In this document: piece after piece, positions 9,512 through 15,267 of the stretch | Position numbering within the stretch: the first letter of the stretch is position 1 | How the letters are laid out: each line of letters begins with the position of its first letter | DNA from: Lawsonibacter sp. | GTDB lineage: Bacteria > Bacillota > Clostridia > Oscillospirales > Oscillospiraceae | DNA length: 35,297 bases | Assembly: GCA_022796195.1 (NCBI GenBank) | Contig: JAAWIE010000015.1 | Span: forward strand, 1 to 35,297 | Direction: 5' to 3' | Translations under genes and position numbers: made by a program | The notes under the pieces: generated by a model | Told to the model about the DNA's origin: nothing | Seen by the model: only the letters and a program-made list of their open reading frames with translations | The model's database searches: none

Positions 9512-9704
9512 CAGTTTTTTTTAGAAATCAGCCGTTTCTTAGAAGAATCAAATTGTTGTCTTCACTTTTTTCGCTTATTTTTAAAATTTTACTGCTCACT
9601 TCTCAATTCTGTGAGTCGTCAATTCACACAAAAACGCCCTATCTTTTTTATATTTTTTCGACCCACTCGCAAGATGACCTGGTTTTTCAAATTTCGCCCG
9701 CTCT

Positions 9705-9720
9705 TTTTGTACATAAAAGC
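9705..9720. promoter_or_regulatory. AraR-like operator upstream of araR
   Basis: TTTTGTACATAAAAGC matches 11 of 16 positions of the AraR consensus. It shares TTGTACATA with the site at 9789, 84 bp (about eight helical turns) away, a spacing that would allow looping. Confidence 0.5.
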
Positions 9721-9788
9721 CACTCAATTCTCAGAGCTTTTCTCAAATCCCCGGTAAAGCCCCAACAAAATACAGACAAATTATTTTT

Positions 9789-9804
9789 AGTTGTACATAC
9801 CTCT
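9789..9804. promoter_or_regulatory. AraR-like operator overlapping the araR -35
   Basis: AGTTGTACATACCTCT contains the core TTGTACATAC and matches 11 of 16 AraR consensus positions. It covers the -35 region of the regulator gene, which suggests autorepression. Confidence 0.55.
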
Positions 9805-9819
9805 GCATTATGGTATAAT
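9791..9819 (+). promoter_or_regulatory. Promoter of the AraR-type regulator
   Basis: A perfect -10 TATAAT (9814-9819), preceded by TGG, lies 17 nt from -35 TTGTAC (9791-9796). Ribosome site AAGGAGG (9843-9849) and ATG at 9859 follow. Confidence 0.75.
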
Positions 9820-9858
9820 CAACGCAAATTTTCCTTTCCTCCAAGGAGGTCCCCCGCC

Positions 9859-10926
9859 ATGGCACCCAAATATCAGTCTGTCGCCAACTCCCTGCGTCTG
9901 GAAATTGAAAACGGTTTATATAACAGCAAGCAGCTGCTCCCTACGGAGCAGCTGCTCTGTCAGCGTTTTAAAATCAGCCGGCAGACGGTCCGCCGGGCCC
10001 TCTCTGTGCTGGAAGACGAGGGTCTGATTACCCGCCGGCAGGGCAGCGGCTCCCATCTGCGGGAAACAATGGAACCCGAAGTCCTTCTCAACTGCACCAT
10101 TGCCGTTGTCACCACCTACATCAATGATTATATCTTCCCTGGTATTCTCCAGGGTATGGAGCGGGTGTTAACCGCCAACAGCAGCGCCCCGCTCCTTTTC
10201 GCCACCCAGAACCAGGTCTCCACCGAGCGAAAAATCCTACAAACCCTCCTCACAATGAAGGAATTGGACGGTATATTGGTGGAGGGGAGCAAAACCGCCC
10301 TGCCCAATCCTAACTTAGACCTGTATCAAAAACTAATTCAGCGCGGGATTCGCCTAGTCTTCATCAACGGCGCCTACCCGGAATTGGCGGACACACCCTC
10401 TGTATTGGCGGACAACTACGGGGGCGGACGGCAGCTGGTGGAATACCTCTATCAGAAGGGACACCGAAACATCGCTGGAATTTTCAAAAATGACGACATC
10501 CAGGGCACCCTGCGCTACGCCGGTTATACGGAAGCACTCCGTGACCTGGGTCTTCCCTTTGAGGATGAGTGGGTCTTCTGGTACAACACCGAGCGTCGGA
10601 AAGCCTTCCGCTCCGAATCCTTCGTGGATTCTGTGGTAGAGGGCTTCGCCGGGTGCTCCGCCATTGTATGCTATAACGACGAGGTCGCCATCCGCATTGT
10701 CTCCCGCCTCCAGAAACGGGGGATTGACATTCCTTCCCAGATGGCGGTGGTCAGCTTTGACAACAGCCAATACAGTGAGTTAGCCCCTGTACGTCTCACC
10801 TCGCTGTCCCACGGGGGCCGGGACCTGGGGGAATTGTCTGCCACACTGATGCTCCACCTGCTCCGGGGGGACGCCTGTCAATCTGTGGTTGTCCCTTGGC
10901 ATTTGGTGGAACGGGAGAGCGGCTGA
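9859..10926 (+). CDS. araR: AraR-type transcriptional repressor (GntR wHTH + LacI effector domain)
   Basis: This 355-residue chimeric regulator has a GntR winged helix in residues 1-70 (LPTEQLLCQRFKISRQTVRR, then GLITRRQGSGSHL). A LacI/periplasmic-binding-like effector domain follows from about residue 75 (IAVVTTYINDYIFPGILQGM, KGHRNIAGIFK, DIPSQMAVVSFDNSQ). This domain order is diagnostic of Firmicutes AraR, which binds L-arabinose and releases DNA. The ATG at 9859 has AAGGAGG 9 nt upstream; the frame is open further upstream through AT-rich DNA, but that part does not look coding. It is divergent from the ara operon, with AraR-like operators at both promoters. The symbol rests on architecture, operators and context. 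Confidence 0.88.
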   Translation: MAPKYQSVANSLRLEIENGLYNSKQLLPTEQLLCQRFKISRQTVRRALSVLEDEGLITRRQGSGSHLRETMEPEVLLNCTIAVVTTYINDYIFPGILQGMERVLTANSSAPLLFATQNQVSTERKILQTLLTMKELDGILVEGSKTALPNPNLDLYQKLIQRGIRLVFINGAYPELADTPSVLADNYGGGRQLVEYLYQKGHRNIAGIFKNDDIQGTLRYAGYTEALRDLGLPFEDEWVFWYNTERRKAFRSESFVDSVVEGFAGCSAIVCYNDEVAIRIVSRLQKRGIDIPSQMAVVSFDNSQYSELAPVRLTSLSHGGRDLGELSATLMLHLLRGDACQSVVVPWHLVERESG

Positions 10927-11225: not shown

Positions 11226-11254
11226 TTGACTTCCTTCTCCCGTAAAGTTATGAT
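11226..11254 (+). promoter_or_regulatory. Promoter of the antiterminator-PTS operon
   Basis: -35 TTGACT (11226-11231), a 17-nt spacer and -10 TATGAT (11249-11254). The predicted start near 11261 puts the RAT element about 10 nt into the leader, as expected for BglG/LicT-type control. Confidence 0.8.
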
Positions 11255-11271
11255 GGTTGCAAATTAATGTT

Positions 11272-11300
11272 GGAATGTTACCGGTCCGCCGGGCTTGACC
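11272..11300 (+). promoter_or_regulatory. Ribonucleic antiterminator (RAT) 1, upstream of the antiterminator gene
   Basis: This 29-nt element begins GGAATGTTACCGG and ends CGGGCTTGACC. It has the same length and block order as the LicT/SacY RAT consensus (GGATTGTTACTG ... GGCAGGCAAAACC). An outer TTGG/CCAA stem (11270-11273 and 11299-11302) and an inner CCGG/CCGG stem with a TCCG loop flank two asymmetric internal loops, as in known RATs. Its 3' end is the 5' arm of the following terminator, so the two folds exclude each other. Confidence 0.8.
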
Positions 11301-11363
11301 AACTCTGTCTGTGTTTACCTGTGCGCTTCGCGCACGGAGCGAAGGCGGGGTTGGTCTATTTTT
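11297..11363 (+). terminator. Conditional terminator 1 (leader of the antiterminator gene)
   Basis: GACCAACTCTG (11297-11307) pairs with CGGGGTTGGTC (11346-11356) with two G-U pairs, followed by TATTTTTG. An inner hairpin GTGCGC-TTC-GCGCAC (11321-11335) gives a branched terminator. It shares bases 11297-11300 with RAT 1 and precedes the TTG start at 11379. Confidence 0.8.
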
Positions 11364-11378
11364 GAGGGGGCAGAGGAT

Positions 11379-12221
11379 TTGCGCATCAAAAAGGTCATCA
11401 ACAACAACATCCTCTGCGTGGTGGACGAAACAGGGGGCGAAATGATCGTCACAGGCAAGGGTCTGGGCTTCAAGCGGAAAATCGGCGAGCGGATTGACCC
11501 CGGACTTTTTGAGAAAACCTACCACATGGAGGGCAAGGCGGAACAGCGTAAGCTGCGCGAACTGTGCGCCCAAATCCCTCTGGAGCACCTCCGGCTGACT
11601 CAGGACTTGATCGAGTTCATCAAGAGCCAGATTTCCGCCCCTCTAAACGAATCCCTGCTGATTACACTGGCCGACCACATCAGTTTCGCCATTGAGCGCA
11701 AGGCAAACGGCGTGGAATTCACCAACCCGCTGGAAGGAGCCATTATGGGGTATTACCCCACCGAATATCATTTGGGCCAGCACTGCCTGCGGGTCATTCA
11801 GGAGCAGACCCAGGTAGAGCTGAATTCCAGCGAGGCGGCCTTTATCGCCCTACATATCGTCAACGCGGAGCTGAACACCAGCATGAGCGTGATGTACGAT
11901 ATCACCCAACTCATCGAAGGGACGCTGGAGGTGGTGGAGCGTTTTTACCAGCGCACGTTTGACCGGGAGGCCTTGGACTTCACCCGTTTTCTGGTCCATT
12001 TGCGCTACTTTGCCCAGCGTCTGCTCCAGTCGGCTCCGGCCCGGAGCCGTGAATTTGACGCAGACTTCCACGAAATGATTCTCCGGAGCTGCCCCCAGCA
12101 CTATTCCTGCGCCCAGCGCATCGGCGAGTACATCCAGAACGCCTGTCAAAAAGAAATTCCACAGGACGAGCTGATTTACCTCACCCTCCACCTGAAACGC
12201 ATCAACCTGAACCAAATATAG
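11379..12221 (+). CDS. BglG-family transcriptional antiterminator (LicT/GlcT-like)
   Basis: This 280-residue protein matches LicT in length. Residues 1-55 form the CAT RNA-binding domain (RIKKVINNNILCVVDETGGE, KGLGFKRKIGE); two PRD domains follow. All four PRD phosphorylation histidines are in the expected places: H100 (ADHISF), H159 (ALHIVNAEL), H207 (LVHLRYF) and H271 (LTLHLKRI). The protein would bind the RAT elements at 11272 and 12224 and prevent termination, with activity set by PTS phosphorylation. The start is a TTG: GAGGGGG lies 8 nt upstream and the family starts at MxIKKVxNNN; an ATG-like frame extension upstream runs through the terminator. The operon position before EIIBA-HPr-EI resembles glcT-ptsGHI of Bacillus, but sugar specificity cannot be read from sequence. 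Confidence 0.92.
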   Translation: MRIKKVINNNILCVVDETGGEMIVTGKGLGFKRKIGERIDPGLFEKTYHMEGKAEQRKLRELCAQIPLEHLRLTQDLIEFIKSQISAPLNESLLITLADHISFAIERKANGVEFTNPLEGAIMGYYPTEYHLGQHCLRVIQEQTQVELNSSEAAFIALHIVNAELNTSMSVMYDITQLIEGTLEVVERFYQRTFDREALDFTRFLVHLRYFAQRLLQSAPARSREFDADFHEMILRSCPQHYSCAQRIGEYIQNACQKEIPQDELIYLTLHLKRINLNQI

Positions 12222-12223
12222 CG

Positions 12224-12252
12224 GGATCGTGACCGGTCAAGCGGGCGAAACC
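12224..12252 (+). promoter_or_regulatory. Ribonucleic antiterminator (RAT) 2, upstream of EIIBA
   Basis: This 29-nt element begins GGATCGTGACCGG and ends GCGGGCGAAACC, starting two bases after the antiterminator stop codon. It matches the classical RAT closely and shares ACCGGTC and CGGGC with RAT 1. Its last five bases are the 5' arm of terminator 2. Confidence 0.85.
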
Positions 12253-12300
12253 CATATGGCGTGTACCAACGAACTGGTATGCGTTGTATGGGTTTTTCCT
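12248..12300 (+). terminator. Conditional terminator 2 (before EIIBA)
   Basis: AAACCCATA (12248-12256) pairs with TATGGGTTT (12287-12295). The stem continues inward through G-U pairs to TACCA/TGGTA (12264-12268 and 12275-12279), closing a 6-nt loop, about 21 pairs in all. TTTTTCCTTTT follows. Mutually exclusive with RAT 2. Confidence 0.88.
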
Positions 12301-12403
12301 TTTCCGCAAAGACTAGAACCTGTATGCCGCCCATCGCATCCAGGCGGCAGGGCCTTTTCCCATCGTTCCAAGGGTTCGGCCCCAGCAAAAAGGAGAGAGT
12401 TTT

Positions 12404-13183
12404 ATGTATGGCAAATTGCTCGGTTCATTGCCGCGGGCAGGCCCTGGCGTCTCGGCCCTGATCCTCGAAGGGCTGGGCGGCGCAGCCAATCTGTTGGATG
12501 TGGACTGCTGCGCCACCCGCCTCCGGGTCACCGTCGCTGACCCGGACCGAGTGGACGACGCACTATTGGAGCAGTCCGGTGCCTCCGGCGTCCTCCGCAG
12601 AGGCCCCGGCATCCAAGTGGTCTACGGCCCGCAGGCGGCGGTTCACAAGTCCAATCTGCTGGATTTTATCGCCTCCCCGCAATCCGGACCGGGCCGCTTG
12701 TCCCCTCCCGCGCCCACCCGGGTCAAACGCAGCGCCGTGATGGCCGCCCACATGAACGGCACAGTCGTCCCCATGTGTCAGGTCCAGGATGCAGCATTTT
12801 CCTCCTGCGCACTGGGGGATGGGGCGGCCATTGAGCCCGACGACGGCTGTCTATACGCTCCAGCCGACGGGGAAATCAACAACCTCTTCGACACCTGTCA
12901 CGCCATCGGTCTGGTGACGCAGGAGGGAGTGGAGGTTTTCCTGCACATCGGAATCAATACGGTGGAACTGGGCGGCAAATATTTTCAGGCCCATGCTGCC
13001 GTGGGGCAGAAGGTGACGAAAGGAACCCTGCTCCTCTCCTTCGATCTCGCCGCCGTAAAAGCGGCCGGCTACCTATGCACCACTCCCATGATTATCTGCA
13101 ACACAGACGACTGTCAAAGCGTCACCCCTGTGACGGCGGGTCGGATTCAGGCCGGCGCACCCCTGCTGGAAGTAACCGTTTGA
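12404..13183 (+). CDS. PTS EIIB-EIIA fusion, glucose-family, without EIIC
   Basis: This 259-residue soluble protein has residues 1-80 as an EIIB of the glucose/sucrose family, with the phospho-cysteine motif CCATRLRVTV (Cys36 is the expected site; Cys35 adjoins it). After a Pro-rich linker (about 88-108), residues 110-259 form an EIIA-Glc (Crr-like) domain: HMNGTVVPMCQV, H166 in DTCHAIG and phospho-His181 in VFLHIGINTVELGG, with the 15-residue spacing seen in E. coli Crr. It would accept phosphate from HPr and pass it to a sugar through a separate EIIC, or to the PRDs of the antiterminator. AAGGAGAG precedes the ATG. No transmembrane segment is present and no EIIC is encoded in the window. 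That is unusual, because EIIB of this family is normally fused to EIIC. Confidence 0.9.
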   Translation: MYGKLLGSLPRAGPGVSALILEGLGGAANLLDVDCCATRLRVTVADPDRVDDALLEQSGASGVLRRGPGIQVVYGPQAAVHKSNLLDFIASPQSGPGRLSPPAPTRVKRSAVMAAHMNGTVVPMCQVQDAAFSSCALGDGAAIEPDDGCLYAPADGEINNLFDTCHAIGLVTQEGVEVFLHIGINTVELGGKYFQAHAAVGQKVTKGTLLLSFDLAAVKAAGYLCTTPMIICNTDDCQSVTPVTAGRIQAGAPLLEVTV

Positions 13184-13287
13184 GCCCCCTGCGTCAAGGG
13201 CGTTTTCCGCTCAAGACGTTTTACACCATATCTGTCCATGGACTGCCCGGGGCGGCGGTCCCCCAAAAAAGAAAGGAAGTATTGATT

Positions 13288-13551
13288 ATGAAACAGTTTA
13301 CCTACACCATCTCTGACCCCGTCGGCATCCACGCCCGTCCCGCCGGACTCCTGGCCAAAGCCGCCAAGGGACTGGACAGCACCATCACCATCACCAAGGC
13401 CGACGGCAGCAAGTCCGCCGCCGCCACCAAGCTCATGGCTCTGATGGGTATGGGCGTGAAGACCGGCGAGACAGTTACCGTGACCATCGAGGGCGGTAAC
13501 GAGGAGGCCAACGCCGCCGCCATGGAGCAGTTCTTCCAAGAGAATCTGTAA
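13288..13551 (+). CDS. ptsH: Phosphocarrier protein HPr
   Basis: This 87-residue HPr has phospho-His15 in DPVGIHARPAGLL. It transfers phosphate from enzyme I to EIIA domains. The segment around the usual regulatory Ser46 reads TKLMALMGMGVK where Bacillus HPr has KSIMGVMSLGIA, so lysine replaces the serine that HPr kinase phosphorylates; CcpA-type signalling through this copy is doubtful. The ATG at 13288 has AAAGGAAG upstream and fits the family N-terminus; the longer open frame is spurious. The 104-nt gap from EIIBA contains a small hairpin (13240-13261). The downstream gap to ptsI contains a stronger hairpin. Confidence 0.95.
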   Translation: MKQFTYTISDPVGIHARPAGLLAKAAKGLDSTITITKADGSKSAAATKLMALMGMGVKTGETVTVTIEGGNEEANAAAMEQFFQENL

Positions 13552-13587
13552 TCTATGCGCTCCTCGTTCGGGGCACAGCGCAGATAT

Positions 13588-13611
13588 GTCCGCCCCCTTT
13601 CGGGGGCGGAC
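13588..13611 (+). terminator. Intercistronic hairpin between ptsH and ptsI
   Basis: GTCCGCCCCC (13588-13597) pairs perfectly with GGGGGCGGAC (13602-13611) around TTTC. No T run follows (TTCCAAAAA), so it is more likely an mRNA-stabilising or attenuating element that sets the HPr to enzyme I ratio than a true terminator. Confidence 0.6.
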
Positions 13612-13641
13612 TTCCAAAAACATCGGTAAGGAGGATTTCCC

Positions 13642-15267
13642 ATGAAGGTCGCAACCGGAAAATCCATTTTAAACGGCATCGCCATCGGCCCTCTGCGCAT
13701 CTACAAGAAGGCGAAAACCCAGACCAGCCAGACCTCCAGCCTCACCCCCGCCCAGGAGTGGGCCCGCTTCGAGGAGGCCAGCGAGAAGGCAAAAGAGCAG
13801 CTGGCCGAACTTTATGAAAAGGCTTTGGAGGAGGTGGGGGAGGACAATGCCGCCATCTTCGAAATCCACCAGATGATGCTGGAGGACGATGACTATCTGG
13901 AGGCCATCAAAGGCATTATTGACACCCAGGGCGCCACTGCCGAGTACGCCACCGAGACCACCGGCGAGAACTTCTCCGCCGCCTTCGCCGCCATGGACGA
14001 CGAATACATGCGGGCCCGGGCCACCGACGTGAAAGATATCTCCCGCCGGGTGGTCAACGTTCTCACCGGCCAGGACGAGGGGGACGCCCTCTCCGGCCAG
14101 CCCGCCATTCTGGTCGCAGACGACCTGACCCCCAGCGAGACGGTCCAGCTGGACAAAAGCAAACTGCTGGGTTTTATCACCCGCTACGGCTCTTCCAACA
14201 GCCACACCGCCATCTTGGCCCGCACCATGAACATTCCCGCCCTCATTGGCGTGGACTTTGACGACAGCTGGGACGGTAAGCCCGCCGTGCTGGACGGCTA
14301 TAACCACTGTGTCTACATCGACCCGGCCCAAGAACTGCTGACCGCTATGGAGGAAAAGCGCAAAGCGGACCTGAAGCAGGAGGCTCTGCTTCAGACTTTG
14401 AAGAAAAAGCCAAATGTCACGCTGGACGGCAGGGAGATTAAGGTATATGCCAATATCGGCAACGCCGGCGACGTGGGTCTGGTTCTGCAAAACGACGCCC
14501 AGGGCATTGGCCTGTTCCGCAGTGAATTTATCTATCTGGACTCGGCGGATTACCCCAGCGAAGATCACCAGTTCACCATCTATAAGCGGGTGGTGGAAAC
14601 CATGGCCGGGAAAAAGGTCATCATCCGTACTCTGGACATCGGGGCCGACAAGCAGGCGGACTATTTTGAATTGGATCAGGAGGAAAATCCTGCGCTGGGC
14701 TATCGGGCCATCCGCATCTGCCTGACCCGAAAGGATATTTTCAAGCAGCAGCTCCGTGCCATTCTCCGGGCCAGCGCCTTTGGCACCGTCTCCATCATGT
14801 TCCCCATGGTCATCTCCGTTCGAGAGGTGCGGGATGCCAAAGAACTGCTGGAGGAGTGCCGTACTGAGCTGAAAGAGCGTGGAGTCGCCGTAGGCGAAGT
14901 GGAGACCGGCGTCATGATCGAAACTCCCGCCGCCGTCATGATCGCCGACGAGCTGGCCGCCGAGGTGGATTTCTTCTCCCTGGGCACCAACGACCTGAGC
15001 CAGTACACGCTGGCCATCGACCGGCAGAACCCCAAACTGGACAACTTCTACGACCCCCACCACCCCGCCATCCTGCGGATGATCAAGCACACCGTTCAGG
15101 CCGGACACCGCCACGGCTGCTGGGTGGGCATCTGCGGCGAACTGGGGGCGGACCAGAAACTCACCGAGACCTTCCTTCGGATGGGCGTGGATGAGCTGTC
15201 CGTCTCTCCCTCCGCCGTACTGCCCCTGCGCAAGCTGATCCGCAGTTTGGACCTGAGCCAGGAGTAA
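13642..15267 (+). CDS. ptsI: PTS enzyme I (phosphoenolpyruvate-protein phosphotransferase)
   Basis: This 541-residue enzyme takes phosphate from PEP and passes it to HPr. Domain order is the N-terminal HPr-binding/phosphohistidine region (residues about 1-225), with phospho-His188 in GSSNSHTAILAR where E. coli has GGRTSHTSIMAR. The C-terminal PEP-binding TIM barrel follows: GIGLFRSEF, ALGYRAIRICL, TGVMIETPAAV, FFSLGTNDLSQY and catalytic Cys498 in GICGELGAD. Length is slightly short of the usual 570. AAGGAGG lies before the ATG. It is the last gene of the PTS cassette, ending at a strong terminator. Confidence 0.96.
   Translation: MKVATGKSILNGIAIGPLRIYKKAKTQTSQTSSLTPAQEWARFEEASEKAKEQLAELYEKALEEVGEDNAAIFEIHQMMLEDDDYLEAIKGIIDTQGATAEYATETTGENFSAAFAAMDDEYMRARATDVKDISRRVVNVLTGQDEGDALSGQPAILVADDLTPSETVQLDKSKLLGFITRYGSSNSHTAILARTMNIPALIGVDFDDSWDGKPAVLDGYNHCVYIDPAQELLTAMEEKRKADLKQEALLQTLKKKPNVTLDGREIKVYANIGNAGDVGLVLQNDAQGIGLFRSEFIYLDSADYPSEDHQFTIYKRVVETMAGKKVIIRTLDIGADKQADYFELDQEENPALGYRAIRICLTRKDIFKQQLRAILRASAFGTVSIMFPMVISVREVRDAKELLEECRTELKERGVAVGEVETGVMIETPAAVMIADELAAEVDFFSLGTNDLSQYTLAIDRQNPKLDNFYDPHHPAILRMIKHTVQAGHRHGCWVGICGELGADQKLTETFLRMGVDELSVSPSAVLPLRKLIRSLDLSQE

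Follow-up and report, generated by a model that had tools for sequence, protein, structure and literature searches.

Analysis of a 35,297-nucleotide contig of a Lawsonibacter sp. (hereafter the window) points to a licT-ptsG′-ptsH-ptsI operon controlled by a double gate of the bgl type, in which LicT most likely follows the phosphorylation of the general PTS, a reading that we favour with moderate confidence. The window is the entire contig C79, one of the 197 contigs of a 2.68 Mb assembly (90.9% complete, 7.9% contaminated). The operon spans 11226–15267 on the forward strand and comprises a promoter, an antiterminator element (RAT1) with terminator 1, licT, a further such element (RAT2) with terminator 2, a gene for joined EIIB and EIIA domains, ptsH and ptsI. 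In itself the double gate is nothing out of the ordinary, being the known bgl arrangement; the unusual part is the permease-less ptsG downstream of it, seen once.

A start of transcription near 11261 would be expected from the promoter at 11226–11254 (TTGACT-17 nt-TATGAT), which agrees with the consensus at 10 of 12 positions, as the original prediction had proposed for the region ahead of RAT1. It is one of two such promoters among the six matches between 10000 and 15500, where 2.4 were expected, and it is kept in an alignment of relatives, with TTGAC(T/A) in 15 of 15 rows and a TA-rich −10 hexamer that stays in register while varying by row. The same scan returned no match at its threshold on the forward strand from 12404 to 13642, and ptsH and ptsI may thus lean on the gates more than they do in B. 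subtilis. Upstream of the operon, a frame at 9553–10926 fuses a GntR DNA-binding domain to a LacI-type sugar-binding domain; it adjoins an opposite-strand sugar ABC transporter that resembles YtfQ/YtfR at scores below their cut-offs.

The two predicted 29-nt RATs, at 11272–11300 and 12224–12252, are the only matches to a strict RAT pattern on both strands of the 35 kb, and dinucleotide-preserving shuffles (n = 200) yielded a mean of 0.035 such matches, with two or more in none. A covariance model built from 38 RATs of other genomes, out of the 41 distinct strings collected and with both window strings excluded, scored RAT1 at 45.7 bits (E = 1.4e-13) and RAT2 at 38.9 bits (E = 3.4e-11), the next match in the window reaching 11.5 bits. 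The RAT1 29-mer recurs unchanged in three relatives (L055, L058 and L073) and that of RAT2 in one (L067). RAT2 begins two bases past the licT stop, which ends at 12221, just as had been claimed. A looser pattern was discarded as evidence within the window since shuffled windows give an average of 7.3 chance matches to it. Elsewhere in the assembly, no further credible RAT was found among the 150 of 1657 first-look candidates that were scored with the covariance model: two on contig C162 were rejected, one of 23.9 bits lying within an open frame of 1015 codons, where a 95-nt fold showed no evident terminator, the other of 16.3 bits within a 409-codon open frame. An Rfam search, suggested as a check on the elements, failed to support them, with no match at the gathering threshold; the best, RF03530 over RAT2, reached 20.1 bits of the 80 needed (E = 0.99), and as that model has 137 positions, the sub-threshold score weighs on the Rfam label more than on the identification as a RAT.

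Comparison of the leaders with those of relatives bore the prediction out, in that promoter, RATs and terminators all recur and the RAT pairs covary. A three-sequence LicT alignment was searched against one genome per species, giving 77 loci (78 with the window), mostly from Oscillospirales, plus Intestinibacter and a few others. By pattern, RAT1 is present in 76 of the 78 loci, RAT2 in 46 and both in 45, with no RAT2 found by pattern in 32; the covariance model, applied to 71 of the 77 loci, added a RAT2 in L088 and L094. Across 41 distinct 29-mers, covariation was seen in 25 both-side cells vs 8.1 in shuffles (0/500 as high), and sliding the pair partners abolished the signal. Pair 4–25 is A-U in 29 rows and U-A in 12, and pair 11–20 is C-G in 36 and U-A in five; pairs 5–24 and 13–18 are mostly unformed (unpaired in 36/41 and 27/41 rows). 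These counts refer to 29-nt RATs, other lengths occurring in 9 of 76 RAT1 and 38 of 46 RAT2 elements, and because the collecting pattern fixed several positions (4–25 and 12–19 were free, 11–20 half free), invariant RAT pairs prove nothing. Within one locus, the inner helix often differs between RAT1 and RAT2. In the window, both are presumably read by the single CAT-domain protein detected in the assembly.

Folded alone, the RAT hairpins are of ordinary stability (z = −1.19 for RAT1 and −0.85 for RAT2, with 25 and 38 of 200 shuffles equally stable), so that RAT folding is in itself no evidence for RATs, a protein-held antiterminator being allowed to be weak. RAT2 alone prefers a non-RAT structure, which is expected only if protein holds the RAT fold. 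The strong terminators proposed after both RATs are well supported by folding. Terminator 1 (11297–11363; stem 11297–11356 plus U tract) reaches −38.0 kcal/mol over 11290–11365 (z = −5.35), and terminator 2 (12248–12302; a 20-pair stem at about 12248–12295 plus U tract) reaches −33.8 kcal/mol over 12244–12302 (z = −7.43), with none of 200 shuffles as stable in either case. A simple terminator scan listed terminator 2 and missed terminator 1, in a total of five sites vs 5.8 expected. In both switches the 3′ foot of the RAT is also the start of the terminator stem, and the two folds are therefore mutually exclusive. An overlap of this kind had been predicted at four to five bases; the overlap stands, but its size does not for RAT1, whose hairpin runs below the canonical 29-mer through a GUUGG/CCAAC pairing and so shares more with the terminator. 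This lower helix is kept in the clade (GTTGG in 15/15 and CCAAC in 14/15 alignment rows).

Across the 78 loci, a U-tract terminator with its stem rooted in the RAT foot accompanies 76 of 76 RAT1 and 42 of 46 RAT2 elements, with mean energies of −27.8 and −33.7 kcal/mol. Shuffled downstream sequence gave a hairpin rooted in the RAT foot in 105/228 (RAT1) and 59/138 (RAT2) cases, at a mean of about −15 kcal/mol; with hairpins in nearly half of the shuffles, the mere presence of one counts for little and its stability tells more. In four Intestinibacter-type loci (L119, L120, L121 and L128) the locus's own RAT1 and RAT2 are identical 29-mers, and the test used found no RAT2-rooted terminator. A stretch of about 70 nt past terminator 2 in the window (12318–12390) holds a small GC hairpin and then CCTTTTCC, of ordinary stability (z = −1.27); this insert is missing in 13 of 14 aligned relatives, and L057 carries a different one.

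The antiterminator gene (11379–12221, TTG start) encodes a CAT domain followed by PRD1 and PRD2 (CAT_RBD, 69.3 bits; PRD, 130 bits in two stretches). Its product exceeds the NCBIfam cut-off for LicT (315.1 vs 300 bits) and falls below that for GlcT (233 vs 320), for which reason a GlcT label was dropped; the antiterminators preceding ptsG in three relatives are likewise LicT-type, all three below the GlcT cut-off. The nearest solved sequences are also of LicT (PRDs, 1tlv and 1h99; CAT, 1l1c, E = 3.5e-10). H100, H159, H207 and H271, which we take to be the PRD regulatory histidines, are all present, in agreement with the original prediction. The protein is changed at 5 of 117 sites that are invariant in 22 relatives, against none to three in nine relatives tested alike. 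All five changes fall in PRD2 (5/40 sites vs 0/72 in CAT and PRD1), and regulation of LicT may accordingly have shifted or loosened.

RAT1 and RAT2 flank licT in the same manner in Flintibacter muris (L052), Pseudoflavonifractor (L067), Gemmiger (L089) and I. bartlettii (L121), whose LicT proteins are 81, 78, 66 and 41% identical to that of the window; unlike the window, these loci carry a full EIICBA. Full-length EIICBA follows licT in 68 of the 72 loci that are long enough (68 of 71 other than the window; 6 of 78 were too short and set aside). In the three relatives' proteins so scored, the best match was to the glucose-type model, below its cut-off (525–545 vs 591.8). Besides the window, three loci lack an IIC match: in L122 (Enterococcus italicus) an EIIB match lies 1.2 kb before an EIIA match and probably belongs to another type of EII, in L123 (Treponema) EIIA-HPr-EI follows licT, and in L124 the licT match is in two pieces with no PTS domain matches. 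A second gate on the general PTS genes had been foreseen, and it is present here; in relatives the second gate belongs to ptsG, and it falls on the general PTS genes in the window because IIC is deleted from ptsG and ptsHI lies behind. Nor does a doubled gate seem to be the rule for general PTS genes, as nine loci of the same family (L034–L042) have a single RAT only, before licT and an EIIA gene. In these loci, ptsI and ptsH come next in eight of nine, and an EIIB-bearing frame is also found downstream in all nine (EIICB in L034). Two other arrangements were observed: L025 (1299–1377 and 2317–2346, on the strand of its antiterminator gene) has two RAT-like elements before that gene and one after it, and in L043, L044 and L045 the gene for a distant LicT has a full ptsG upstream and ptsH downstream, joined in the two longer loci by ptsI, and the patterns used detected no RAT next to licT.

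The gene behind terminator 2 (12404–13183, 259 aa) encodes IIB and IIA only, where a PtsG EIICBA unites IIC, IIB and IIA in one protein, and its product aligns to the relatives' ptsG products across IIB and IIA. Its first 41 bases resemble the start of the relatives' ptsG and then run into the start of IIB; in the 38 nt past the ATG, 21–24 are identical to those of 22 relatives (binomial p ~3e-6 for the best). Because the ptsG start is joined to the IIB start, ptsG appears to have lost about 440–450 codons in frame, and we regard this gene, as read from its alignment, as a ptsG from which the IIC domain has been deleted in frame. The same deletion was found in no second genome among the 64 genus genomes, 400 family genomes and 78 loci examined. 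In nine of the genus genomes, the window's included, a single stretch matches both domains, and the eight besides the window have frames of 709–769 aa vs 288; in the family survey, which overlaps the genus sample and in which the best six or fewer candidates per genome were scored, at least 13 genomes including the window's have such a stretch, the other 12 in frames of 702–744 vs 288. Searches of an open-access library turned up no relevant report of an EIIBA lacking EIIC, nor of a Faecalibacterium ptsG antiterminator.

The first 13 codons of the gene (12404–12442) are what remains of the lost IIC domain. Measured against nine close relatives out of the 22 aligned, codons 2–13 of this single genome have a pN/pS of 1.04, where the relatives' own pN is 0.008, and 6 of 10 relative-invariant residues are changed. 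The corresponding pN/pS values are 0.33 for IIB (relatives, 0.10) and 0.30 for IIA (relatives, 0.26), with 8 of 53 and 3 of 51 invariant sites changed (Fisher vs the remnant, p = 0.006 and 0.0003); in IIB, the nine other loci show none or one such change. We read this as an old deletion, after which the useless IIC start has drifted neutrally while IIA has remained under ordinary constraint and IIB has been partly released, the last probably because its partner IIC is gone. Part of the IIBA divergence may be older than the deletion. In a tree of 23 IIBA rows, no terminal branch is longer than that of the window (0.38, vs 0.03–0.16 for 20 others and 0.27 for the two most distant). The gene is nonetheless an intact frame of 259 codons with a ribosome-binding site, and it retains the active-site motifs CCATRLR at 35, H166 and H181, the IIB Cys and IIA His of which we take to be phosphorylation sites.

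The remaining genes of the operon are ptsH (HPr) at 13288–13551 and ptsI (enzyme I) at 13642–15267. The operon HPr reads ATKLMALMG and lacks a serine at position 46, presumably the regulatory site that is typical of HPr. A second HPr, on contig C25, reads KSLLGVLSLG and adjoins a gene that we take to be uvrC, and an HPr kinase domain is found on C152; with a serine-less HPr in the operon, the two HPrs may divide transport and catabolite signalling between them. The gap between ptsH and ptsI (13552–13625) holds a very stable pair of hairpins (−36.7 kcal/mol, z = −5.16) with no U tract, where processing or attenuation may fix the ratio of HPr to EI. Another HPr/EI pair, at 1–3626 of C106, is in pieces, with an internal stop and several frames, and is either an old broken copy or on a contaminant contig. 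No glucose-family EIIC was found in the 197 contigs, which are 90.9% complete and so fragmented that they may have missed an IIC gene located elsewhere. The sole PF02378 EIIC above cut-off lies in an EIIC-IIB-EIIA_2 protein on C125, which by its domain order we read as mannitol-type, and C127 encodes a mannose/sorbose-type IIC.

The window combines bgl-type gates with a ptsGHI-type gene order. As in E. coli bglGFB, where bglG sits between two terminators and induction lets transcription past both (PMC9499468, the main text of which does without the term RAT), the antiterminator gene comes first with a terminator on either side; there the second gate serves a whole beta-glucoside permease, whereas here it serves an IIC-less EIIBA, ptsH and ptsI. 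Clostridium acetobutylicum bglGTH likewise has a RAT before both the antiterminator gene and the EII gene, bglT (consensus GGATTGTTACTG-N6/7-CAGGCGAGACC, both reporter-tested; PMC12628678), but there the EII is a beta-glucoside one with all domains and the general PTS genes are absent. The order antiterminator gene, RAT/terminator, ptsG, ptsH, ptsI is that of B. subtilis glcT-ptsGHI, in which glcT and ptsHI are expressed constitutively from promoters of their own and ptsG alone is gated, unphosphorylated GlcT reading through and EII-Glc~P inactivating it via PRD1 until glucose gives relief (PMC12445079). The window differs from that system in gating licT too, in the LicT type of its protein and in a ptsG without IIC. 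An autoregulated BglG/SacY-type antiterminator also precedes a PTS permease in Enterococcus faecalis nagY-nagE; the portion of PMC9981650 consulted reports RATs before nagY and hylA and none between nagY and nagE.

On the reading that we favour, transcription would get past terminator 1 only with LicT bound to RAT1 on the nascent RNA, and polymerase that has read on through licT would face that choice again at RAT2/terminator 2, ahead of the genes for EIIBA, HPr and EI. With antitermination working as it does in the known family, LicT would set its own level and then, a second time, the level of the PTS proteins. Feed-forward was the original name for this design; self-gating and a second gate are still what we predict, but a strict feed-forward is not, since a single transcript carries both gates, one after the other, and we have replaced the label by series gating with positive autoregulation. 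HPr~P acts on PRD2 in regulators of this family and would do so in LicT, and EIIB~P would inactivate LicT via PRD1. EIIBA~P without IIC would have no sugar of its own as phosphate acceptor and could equilibrate with HPr; unable to phosphorylate its own sugar, it would leave LicT tracking the balance between phosphorylation fed by PEP and its drain through other PTS routes, for which the mannitol-type (C125) and mannose/sorbose-type (C127) systems would be candidates. The resulting circuit would fit general PTS supply to PTS load. A fuller version, to which we give only tentative credence, is that sugar-specific antitermination has come to regulate general PTS capacity independently of any one sugar, with soluble EIIBA reporting PTS phosphorylation, LicT controlling itself, EIIBA, HPr and EI via two serial RATs, and the load-supply loop thereby closed.

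The main rival is that the operon is decaying: glucose-type PTS uptake would have been abandoned, ptsG would have lost IIC and its stub would be kept only by lying before ptsH and ptsI, with RATs and LicT as leftovers that still gate ptsHI, LicT mainly answering HPr. The unusual changes at relative-invariant sites in IIB and in PRD2 of LicT, the long branch of the window in the IIBA tree and the want of a glucose-family EIIC in the assembly all suit such an account, which nevertheless seems to us unlikely given the intact EIIBA frame with its ribosome-binding site and active-site motifs, its pN/pS of about 0.3 next to remnant codons at 1.04, and the identity of RAT2 with that of L067.

A permease in two pieces, with EIIBA as soluble phosphate donor to an EIIC encoded elsewhere, would draw on the incompleteness of the assembly and on B. 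subtilis, where transporters without an EIIA make use of the one in PtsG (PMC6148471). That EIIC would have to be found beside a PF02378 protein that has its own IIB and IIA and a mannose/sorbose-type EIIC, and we consider the arrangement improbable. The same paper records that splitting EIIBA from EIIC in engineered B. subtilis gave no growth on glucose, a result that bears on transport and not on control of GlcT. Least probable by far is an assembly artefact hiding an ordinary licT-ptsG-ptsH-ptsI operon: the assembly is fragmented and the case is single, but the junction is in frame, and a fresh assembly error would leave relative-like sequence in the remnant, where six of ten relative-invariant residues are changed.

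Conservation and covariation together place a double RAT gate on ptsG of the glucose type in many gut bacteria of the Oscillospirales, under an antiterminator of LicT rather than GlcT type. In the window, an apparent natural domain deletion removes the sugar sensor from this circuit while the phosphotransfer domains stay constrained. If confirmed, this would show a route by which a sugar-specific switch comes to sense the state of the general PTS, and the window provides a natural setting in which to ask what PRD regulators respond to without an attached permease.
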